NCBI GenBank assembly: GCA_020849615.1 | Contig: JADLFW010000012.1 | Location: 186,001-250,000, forward strand | Origin: Phycisphaerales bacterium | Lineage (GTDB): Bacteria > Planctomycetota > Phycisphaerae > Phycisphaerales > UBA1924 | Reading direction: 5' to 3' | DNA length: 64,000 nt | Shown here: one piece after another, positions 42,179-45,870 of the stretch | Position numbering within the stretch: the first letter of the stretch is position 1 | Layout of the letters: each line of letters starts with the position of its first letter | Program-made: the position numbers and the translations under genes | The notes under the pieces: model-generated | The model's input: the letters and a program-made list of their open reading frames with translations, nothing else | Database searches by the model: none | What the model was told of the DNA's origin: nothing

Positions 42179-43474
42179 ATGCTCCCCCGCCAGGCGACCC
42201 GTCAGATCACCGTCGGCGATGACCGAGTCGGTCGAGTCCGCATCGGCGGCGGGCTGCCGGACCGCGCGGGCCGGCCCACCACCCCCGCGCCGGTCTCCGT
42301 GCAGACCATGACCGCGGGCTACACGCACGATGTCGAGGCGTGCGTGACGGAGATCAACCGCCTCGCCGCGGCGGGGGCCGACATCGTCCGCGTCGCGGTC
42401 CCGGAGAAGAAGGACACCGATGCCCTCCGGGAGATCCTGCCGCGCGTGCAGGTCCCCATCGTCGCCGATGTTCACTTCCACTTCCAGCGGGCGCTCGAGG
42501 CCGTCGATGCGGGCGTCCACAAGATCCGCCTGAACCCCGGCAATATCAGCGACCGGGCCCAGGTCGTCGATGTCATCCAGGCCTGCAAGGCCCGCGGCCT
42601 GCCGATCCGCATCGGCGTCAACGAGGGCTCCATCATCGAGCGCCGCGACAAGCAGAAGCGCATGAAGGAGCTGGGCCAGGTCTTCAGCGACCACAAGCAC
42701 GGCTACCTGCTGGCGATCATGATCACCAAGCTCGAGGAATACCTCGACATCTTCTACGAGCAGGATTTCCACGACATCGCCATCAGCGCCAAGAGCATGG
42801 ACGCAGCCCTCGTCGTCGACGCCTACACCGAGATCGCCAAACGCTTCAACCACCCCCTGCACCTGGGCGTCACCCACGCCGGGCCCAAGGAGACCGGGGC
42901 CATCCGCTCCGTCGCCGCCCTGGGCGGGCTGCTCATCAACGGCATCGGCGACACGATCCGAATCAGCTACGCCAGCGACCCCGTCTACGAAGTCGAGGAT
43001 GGCCTCGAGCTGCTCTACTGCCTGGGCCTGCGCGAGCGCAAGGGCGTGGACCTCATCGCCTGCCCCACCTGCGGCCGCATCCAGGTCGACCTGTTCACCC
43101 TGGTGCAGGATGTCCGCAAGCAGCTGGCGCAGCAGGTCACCGTGCCGCTGAAGGTCGCGGTCATGGGGTGCATCGTGAACGGGCCCGGCGAGGCCGAGGG
43201 CGCCGATGTCGCCGTCTTCGCGGGCGACCGACGCGGCATCATCTACGTGCAGGGCGAGCGCGTGGCCAACGTCCCCGAGCCCGAGATCCTCGACCGCCTG
43301 CTCGCCGAGTGCCTCGCGTTCCAGGACCGCGTGCTGCGCGGCGAAGCAAAGCTGGGCGAGAAGAAGGTCGCGATCATCCCGCCCGACCCGATCGGAGAAC
43401 TGGGGTCGGGAGTGGACAAGATCGCACGCGGCCAGGTCGAATCGCGCGCGCCGCTCACGATCGGCCGGTCGTAA
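42179..43474 (+). CDS. ispG: 4-hydroxy-3-methylbut-2-enyl diphosphate synthase IspG
   Basis: 431 aa. [4Fe-4S] enzyme of the MEP isoprenoid pathway; it makes HMBPP from MEcPP. The TIM-barrel part has VQTMTAGYTHDVEACVTEINRLAAAGADIVRVAVPE and VADVHFHFQRALEAVDAG. The reductase part has the cluster ligands in the CPTCGR and MGCIVNGPGEAEGAD motifs. Length is between the short bacterial type and the plant type, without a large insert. ATG 42179 is preceded by TAGGA. Confidence 0.97.
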   Translation: MLPRQATRQITVGDDRVGRVRIGGGLPDRAGRPTTPAPVSVQTMTAGYTHDVEACVTEINRLAAAGADIVRVAVPEKKDTDALREILPRVQVPIVADVHFHFQRALEAVDAGVHKIRLNPGNISDRAQVVDVIQACKARGLPIRIGVNEGSIIERRDKQKRMKELGQVFSDHKHGYLLAIMITKLEEYLDIFYEQDFHDIAISAKSMDAALVVDAYTEIAKRFNHPLHLGVTHAGPKETGAIRSVAALGGLLINGIGDTIRISYASDPVYEVEDGLELLYCLGLRERKGVDLIACPTCGRIQVDLFTLVQDVRKQLAQQVTVPLKVAVMGCIVNGPGEAEGADVAVFAGDRRGIIYVQGERVANVPEPEILDRLLAECLAFQDRVLRGEAKLGEKKVAIIPPDPIGELGSGVDKIARGQVESRAPLTIGRS

Positions 43475-43748: not shown

Positions 43749-45038
43749 CTACTTCGCCCCCCGCTTCAACTGCGCATCTAGTTGCCGCCGGATCATCTCT
43801 CTCACCTGCCGGGCCTGCTGCGGCGTCATCCCCGTGCCCTCCAGGTCTACCGTGATCGCGGGCCGCCATTGCGAACCGCCGGGCACGTAGCCGGTCTCCG
43901 CCGCCAGCCGCTTCTCGAGGTCGGGCAGGTGTCCCCCTCCGTAGATGATGCCGATCGACTTCACGCCCGGCTCGTCCTTCAGAATGCGCTTGACATCCTC
44001 CATCACGACCGCGTTGCGGTCCTCCACGATGACCTTCATCATCGCAGCGCCCGCCTGCGCGGCCATCAGGTCATCGGCCCGGCTGAGCATCTCGATCATC
44101 ATGACCTTCATCATGATCTGCATGGATGGGCTCGCCTTGACGAACTCCAGCAGCACGCCCGCGAGCCGGGCGAACACGCTGCTGCCATCGAGCAGCTTGA
44201 AGAGCTGGTCGGCGCCCGCGCCCGCCTTCTCGAGCCGCTCCTGCACCTGGTCGATGGACATGTCGCTGTTGCGCCAGTTGGGCTTGGTGTGGTCCATCAC
44301 CGCGAGCTGGAAACTCAGCCCCATCGCGTCGGCCATCTGTTGCTGAATGCCGCCCCCGCCCGCGCCTCGCTCGGACTTGGAGAGCGGCTTCTGGTCCGAC
44401 AGCCGCAGGTCCTGATCCACCCCCTCGCCGCCCTCGCGGCCATCGGCCCCAAGGCTCACGACCTCGTACTTCCCGGTGGCGCTGTCCAGCGTGTACACCA
44501 GCGGCCGGGCCCAGAGGTCCTGCAGCGATCGCTCCAGCATCGCGTCGGGCAGGCGCGCCGTGCCGCGGAGCTGATCGACGCTCCGCGGGTACTCGCCGTG
44601 CTCCCGCTTGTACGCCTCGGCGGCCATGGCGATGAACCGGATGCGCCGGGCCGTGGCCCGCGCCTTGGCCTCATCGCCCTCCAGCCCGGCCTCGCCGCCC
44701 AGCCCCGGCGGCTTCACACCCTCGTACAGGACGACATCCTGCCGGTCGAGGAACTCCTGCAGCGAGTCATAGAACGCCTTGTCGGCGATGTGGATCGCGG
44801 CGGCAAGGTGCAGCGCGGGCCCGTCACCATCGGCGCGACGGAACTCCCGCACCGCGGCCTCCAGGACGATCATCTGGCCATCATCCTCCTCGGTCACGCG
44901 GAGGTACGGGCCGGGCCCGCCGCCTTCCTGCGCGAGCGCTGATGGCACGCCCATCAGCAGCGCCGACACGAACGCGATGCAGCACGGCCTGGGAGTGCTA
45001 AAGAAGGAGAACAGGGATGGGGCGGCGGCGTGGGGCAT
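43749..45038 (-). CDS. TraB/TiKi-like protein with an internal GspG pseudopilin-like insert
   Basis: 429 aa with signal peptide (about residues 1-36, cleaved near ALAQ). Residues 60-110 have the TraB opening (HLAAAIHIADKAFYDSLQEFL, VVLYEGV), and about 235-410 the closing half (VVMEDVKRILKDEPGVKSIGIIYGGGHLPDLEKRLAAE). Between them, residues 134-214 form a type II secretion major-pseudopilin C-domain: AEAYKREHGEYPRSVDQL, then DLWARPLVYTL and YEVVSLGADGREGGEGVDQDL, the GspG signature. No prepilin N-helix precedes it, so this is an insertion, not a pilin. ATG 45038 is chosen (AGGA upstream). Confidence 0.8.
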   Translation of the reverse strand: MPHAAAPSLFSFFSTPRPCCIAFVSALLMGVPSALAQEGGGPGPYLRVTEEDDGQMIVLEAAVREFRRADGDGPALHLAAAIHIADKAFYDSLQEFLDRQDVVLYEGVKPPGLGGEAGLEGDEAKARATARRIRFIAMAAEAYKREHGEYPRSVDQLRGTARLPDAMLERSLQDLWARPLVYTLDSATGKYEVVSLGADGREGGEGVDQDLRLSDQKPLSKSERGAGGGGIQQQMADAMGLSFQLAVMDHTKPNWRNSDMSIDQVQERLEKAGAGADQLFKLLDGSSVFARLAGVLLEFVKASPSMQIMMKVMMIEMLSRADDLMAAQAGAAMMKVIVEDRNAVVMEDVKRILKDEPGVKSIGIIYGGGHLPDLEKRLAAETGYVPGGSQWRPAITVDLEGTGMTPQQARQVREMIRRQLDAQLKRGAK

Positions 45039-45132
45039 GAAATGGGTCCTGGCGCGCACGGCGGTGGTACGCGGGCCCGTCGGCCGCTGTTACCCCGCCG
45101 CGGGGGACTATATTGCGAGCGGGTGGCACACC

Positions 45133-45870
45133 ATGTTCTCCGGACGCATCAACCCCGATTTCCATCTGGACCGTGAGCAGATCCGGGCCGAACGGGTCCG
45201 CATGCGCGCCGACCCGCGGTCCCTGGCCCGGCCCGTGGTGGTGCTGGCGGGATGGCGGTCGCCGAGCGTGCAGGGGTTCAGCCTCGCGGACAAGCTCGCC
45301 CCGCTGACGAGCGGCCATCGCGGCGACTTCACATCGGTGTCGTACGCGTTGGCGGGGGACATCGAATCCGCGGCCCGGCGGGCCCGGTCGGTCCTTGAGG
45401 GTCGCTTCCGCGGCGCGAGCGGGGAGGTCGATGTCGTCGGCATCTCGATGGGCGGGCTGGTGGCCCGCCTGCTCATGGCGGAGGACCCTCCGGTCGGACT
45501 CCGCATCCGCAGGCTGTTCACGATCGCGACGCCGCACACGGGCGCGGGGCTGGCCCGGTGGGTCCGCCCCGACCGCGCAGCGCGGGCCATGCGCCCCGGC
45601 TCGCCGCTGCTCGCCCGGCTGGATGACCGGCTGGCGGCCGAGGAGTTCGAGCTGATCTGCTACGCACAGCTGCGCGACTGGTGGGTCGGCGCTTCGCGCG
45701 CCCATCCGCCGGGCCGCGGCTCGCACTGGATCGATGCCACATCGCCGATCGACCGGATATTCAGCCACTTCACAAGCCCGCGGCGCTGGCCCATCGTGCT
45801 GGATATCGCCCGGCGGCTGCGTGGCGAATCACCGCTGGCTCGGACCGCGTCGCGTCCCCCCGGGGACTGA
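45133..45870 (+). CDS. Alpha/beta hydrolase (lipase-like)
   Basis: 245 aa from ATG 45133. The serine elbow is GISMGGLV (S105) after VDVVGISMGG, and a later His lies in GRGSHWIDATSPIDRIFSH. There is no signal peptide, so it is cytosolic. It is divergent from the TraB-like gene (94-nt gap with TATATT at 45112). Its last 42 nt overlap the tail of the convergent membrane-protein gene. It is probably an esterase or lipase of unknown substrate. Confidence 0.8.
   Translation: MFSGRINPDFHLDREQIRAERVRMRADPRSLARPVVVLAGWRSPSVQGFSLADKLAPLTSGHRGDFTSVSYALAGDIESAARRARSVLEGRFRGASGEVDVVGISMGGLVARLLMAEDPPVGLRIRRLFTIATPHTGAGLARWVRPDRAARAMRPGSPLLARLDDRLAAEEFELICYAQLRDWWVGASRAHPPGRGSHWIDATSPIDRIFSHFTSPRRWPIVLDIARRLRGESPLARTASRPPGD

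Follow-up and report, generated by a model that had tools for sequence, protein, structure and literature searches.

A GspG-type pseudopilin head domain inserted in a TraB/TIKI-like protein of Phycisphaerales

In the type II secretion pseudopilus the head domains of the major pseudopilin GspG contact one another and cargo, and GspG assembles mainly via its N-terminal helix. In true GspG calcium acts as the stabiliser, in the place that a disulphide occupies in type IV pilins (PMC4376143; PMC5131608). Proteins of the TraB/PrgY/GumN family (PF01963) within the TIKI superfamily are characterised by two GxxH motifs, a glutamate after the first and an arginine before the second. In VvRRSP and the Ere enzymes the corresponding His/Glu pair, the second histidine and a nearby arginine are essential (PMC6254334). 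Here we describe a planctomycete protein in which a domain of the first kind is placed between two halves of the second.

The window (the whole 64,000-nucleotide stretch of Phycisphaerales DNA analysed) encodes on its minus strand a protein of 429 codons (43752..45038, ATG at 45038, stop codon 43749-43751); a GTG at 45059 is a possible alternative start. The reading frame was kept across 81 aligned relatives, and a frame or assembly artefact was ruled out by the intact open frame in 80 independent contigs. The protein, all parts of which are read from the minus strand, begins with a signal-peptide-like sequence (residues ~1-39, 44922..45038), a hydrophobic stretch followed by SALAQ. Since a crude rule detected a hydrophobic stretch and an AXA-like site ahead of the TraB half in 79 of the 81 relatives, the insert-bearing proteins are probably exported, to the periplasm or the surface.

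The preliminary description had assigned the flanks of the insert to a TraB/TIKI fold. The N-terminal half (residues 45-112, 44703..44906) carries the first GxxH histidine, H83, and a catalytic-type glutamate, E106, and was matched to TraB by profile-profile comparison, whereas the C-terminal half (residues 231-400, 43839..44348) contains D259, R341-N342 and the second GxxH, which ends in H370. Profile comparison, fold and sister proteins bore the assignment out, but PF01963 applied to the window protein alone gave a sub-threshold match of 16.2 bits (cut-off 26.8) that covered residues 305-372. A PF01963 search of the whole genome of this organism returned nothing above threshold, because the TraB part of the window protein is divergent. 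The same model matched 26 of 30 relatives, the best E value among the sister proteins being 7e-10, and it recognised the insert-less relatives L147 and L144 with 30.6 and 32.2 bits. When the family halves, with the insert removed, were aligned by hhalign with classical planctomycete TraB proteins (probability 95.9, E 6.5e-9), the first GxxH, the glutamate, the RN motif and the second GxxH were paired. H83, E106, D259, R341, N342, G367 and H370 are identical in 81/81 proteins; the glycine of the first GxxH, which is the family consensus, is A80 in the window protein. The motifs and the order of the elements are those of TraB/PrgY/GumN proteins, from which the window protein differs in its divergence and in the 100-residue pseudopilin head between the halves. 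On the evidence of these alignments it appears to be a divergent relative within the TIKI superfamily, with a score below the cut-off for membership of PF01963.

The family shares with VvRRSP and erythromycin esterase, by position, the His-Glu pair, the second histidine and a basic residue. The extra lobes of those enzymes are unrelated to pseudopilins, and the glutamate two residues before the first histidine, part of the 2His/2Glu set of VvRRSP, was not present in any of the 81 proteins (column of A81: Ala 63, Val 17, Met 1). Among solved structures the best match to the core was a subunit of Tetrahymena complex IV, with Z 8.6-8.8 over both halves, and the match to the fold of EreC was weak (Z 4.3-4.4). 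The paper on the Tetrahymena supercomplex counts a TraB-family protein among the subunits (PMC10060162), which is presumably the matched chain. Two of these observations count against an active hydrolase: the usual Ala or Val in place of the glutamate, and the role of the Tetrahymena relative as a respiratory-complex subunit, which indicates that the fold can be structural. Both would be compatible with a catalytically dead TraB part, in which case the protein would be a structural or binding protein and the insert a second binding surface. We consider this improbable, because the invariance of H83, E106, R341 and H370 in 81 diverse proteins, down to ~29% identity, would be unexpected in a dead enzyme. 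That the protein is an active hydrolase seems somewhat the better guess.

The segment between the two halves was recognised as a T2SSG domain. PF08334 matched residues 122-211 with an E value of 4e-12 and 46.5 bits (gathering score 21); the match, which is far beyond chance, was recovered in a search of the whole genome too, and the model matched 29/30 relatives in one set and 66/81 in another. In contrast, TIGR01710, which describes the whole GspG pseudopilin, gave 38.2 bits, under its cut-off of 88.85; the prepilin leader and the hydrophobic N-terminal helix are absent. A profile of the insert retrieved XcpT (E 1.7e-14), EpsG and PulG from the PDB. The AlphaFold2 model of the whole protein, computed with 81 family sequences, had a pLDDT of 89.5 and a pTM of 0.85, and its residues 119-217 matched Vibrio EpsG (3fu1) with Z 10.8 and 2.6 A over 93/112 residues. 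Residues 116-224 were also folded alone (65-sequence alignment) and gave a pLDDT of 92.0; this model, too, matched EpsG crystal structures, 3gn9 with Z 11.3 and 4lw9 at 2.0 A. A single continuous novel fold is ruled out by the ability of the insert to fold alone in prediction.

The motifs quoted in the preliminary description, such as HGEYP and LWARPL, are present in the protein. These results uphold the earlier proposal of a GspG-type domain that is separable from the two TraB halves, and they change its description in two respects. The span first given, residues 134-214 (44397-44639), was too short; according to the structure the domain extends over residues ~119-217 (44684..44388). The statement that there is no prepilin helix is correct for the hydrophobic N-terminal part and for the FTLIE-type motif, but the soluble C-terminal part of the GspG helix is present (residues 122-147). 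A prepilin helix or motif was found in none of the 148 insert-bearing ORFs examined, compared to 26 of 31 GspG proteins from the same order. The insert thus has the fold, the DxWG motif and the calcium-site residues in common with the major pseudopilin heads of GspG, EpsG, PulG and XcpT, from which it differs by having neither prepilin leader nor hydrophobic helix and by being internal to another domain. It cannot build a filament in the known way and is no longer a filament subunit. The two-domain architecture itself, a GspG head within a TraB/TIKI protein, we regard as practically certain.

Nine residues of the insert are conserved in GspG as well: P151, D174, W176, S195, G197, D199, G203, G204 and D210. 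The last six belong to the putative calcium loop (residues 190-214, 44397..44471) and are very well preserved among the 81 proteins (S195 in 80, G197 in 81, D199 in 76, G203 in 75, G204 in 76 and D210 in 81). The acidic calcium-site residues, already pointed out in the preliminary description, are kept as in the true GspG proteins of the same order (81 proteins compared). Mean column entropy was 1.86 bits for the calcium loop, 1.83 and 1.97 bits for the TraB halves, 2.46 bits for the insert helix and 2.74 bits for the alpha-beta loop. A loop that varies as little as the catalytic core, in a domain adjacent in sequence to E106, is what could be expected of a calcium-responsive switch, in which calcium would fold the insert and thereby open or close the active site, keeping the enzyme inactive while it is exported and active once outside. 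However, the ion is a constitutive stabiliser in GspG (PMC5131608) and members with damaged loops exist, and we give a switch very little credit. The insert is kept with a partly or wholly degraded calcium loop in L139, L140 and L141, which form a single family from another group, and in L064, L065, L091 and L096. For some of these members calcium appears to be dispensable.

Three residues on the insert helix, T129, R132 and D122, are conserved among the inserts and not in GspG; they are candidates for contact with the TraB core. They could alternatively mark a new interface, by which the insert would serve as a docking module for the type II secretion pseudopilus or secretin, the enzyme being either exported by the machine or acting on it. 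The known contacts of GspG heads with each other and with cargo are in favour of docking, and so is the gene content of the genome, which has several secretins and, apart from the gene described here, two PF08334 genes. Both of these encode ordinary pseudopilins that possess the prepilin helix (FTLIE/FSLLE), and one, a true GspG gene, adjoins GspF- and GspH/I-like genes. But GspG is found in nearly all genomes of the order, so that co-occurrence cannot discriminate, and neither a conserved operon partner nor linked secretion genes were detected in the neighbourhoods of the loci compared, where neighbours other than ispG vary. Moreover, the N-terminal helix, the main assembly element of GspG, is lost from the insert, the remaining conserved insert residues are structural, and the surfaces vary. 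We therefore think docking unlikely. Judged from the alignment, the pattern of conservation in the insert fits a stabilised scaffold whose surfaces vary better than it fits docking onto one conserved partner. That the pseudopilin head came to regulate or target a secreted TIKI-type protease, with calcium binding or docking on the type II secretion machine controlling the place or time of cutting, is also doubtful in our judgement.

In the window, ispG (42179-43474, plus strand) is oriented tail-to-tail with the gene, as it is in about 30 of the 81 loci. The divergent neighbour (44998-45870, plus strand) is lipase/alpha-beta hydrolase-like, with a GISMGG motif, and its true start is likely to be downstream of the overlap with the TraB-like gene.

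Scanning one genome per species yielded 333 relatives, and the best 80 of these were nearly all named Phycisphaerales or Planctomycetota. The same domain order, which the preliminary description had suggested to look for in other genomes, occurs in ~147 of 301 sampled Phycisphaerales genomes (E < 1e-50, a count of rows); with this number of genomes carrying the architecture, chance or a lone fusion artefact is ruled out. The insert-bearing TraB proteins are an old family, which is spread through Phycisphaerales and reaches into some other planctomycetes, and not a curiosity of a single genome. Two records titled Cyanobacteria and Vicinamibacteraceae (L070 and L104) hold typical Phycisphaerales members, and these bins are probably misnamed or mixed. 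A phage origin was rejected: no relative was found in viral contigs, and matches in a viral fold library were weak (best E 1.6e-3, to giant-virus proteins).

Homologues without the insert were found elsewhere in the phylum. In 37 such ORFs the halves are separated by a median of 18 residues (12-47, except for one partial match), as against 112-150 residues in 148 insert-bearing ORFs, some of the ORFs in these two sets being the same gene fetched twice. The insert-less proteins (such as L144, L147 and L158) are homologous to the insert-bearing ones over both halves (hhalign E 4.7e-67) and have 12-47 residues replacing the insert. When a tree was built from the halves, the presence or absence of the insert required three changes, compared to an average of 30.7 after shuffling, and a branch with SH-aLRT 96 set 34 of the 36 insert-less rows together on one side, which makes repeated independent insertion unnecessary. 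The two remaining rows were L192, which is inside a Phycisphaerales clade of insert-bearing proteins (support 98), and L211, which has a very long branch and an unsure placement. The simplest reading of this tree is a single main event, in which the insert was gained or lost, and at least one clear secondary loss. The tree is unrooted by outgroup; classical TraB proteins have no insert, which suggests that the direction was gain. A tree of the insert domain, having few columns, does not prove a single donor.

L192 (271-1401, minus strand) can be looked upon as a natural deletion mutant: the insert is gone, 47 residues stand in its place, and the catalytic-type motifs of the core are kept. It follows that the module is separable and dispensable to the fold. 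In another planctomycete family, represented by L209 (G316:C39) and L210 (G208:C5), a signal-peptide-like start is followed by 3-4 tandem T2SSG heads without prepilin helix; in these proteins the pseudopilin head appears to have been put to new use a second time.

The insert begins ~13 residues past E106, at a point that the insert-less homologues bridge. Because of this position in the sequence, the insert would be located beside the active site, provided that the TIKI topology holds. The best overall explanation, to which we assign an even chance, is that the protein is a secreted TIKI-type hydrolase into which a GspG head was inserted once, to become a calcium-stabilised wall or selectivity module. 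According to this explanation, the head would have entered the loop behind the catalytic-type glutamate E106 in a planctomycete ancestor. As the sequences show, it has lost the pilus-forming helix and retained the predicted calcium-site residues. The secreted TraB/TIKI core would still hydrolyse a peptide or ester bond, and the insert may form a rigid, putatively calcium-stabilised scaffold beside the mouth of the active site, whose variable helix and loop surfaces could select or shield the substrate. The wall or selectivity role taken by itself is a tentative proposal, which we find slightly less probable than not.

Both domains are already known, and their combination is a new domain architecture, not a new kind of system; no earlier description of T2SSG within TraB was found in the open-licence papers searched. 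What the family offers is a head domain of the pilus family that an enzyme has domesticated as a module in its interior, together with natural with/without pairs in the form of insert-bearing, insert-less and secondarily insert-less proteins. Two questions can therefore be put to the test: the function of a pseudopilin head that is unable to build a filament, and the way in which insertions tune TraB/TIKI enzymes, which are poorly understood.
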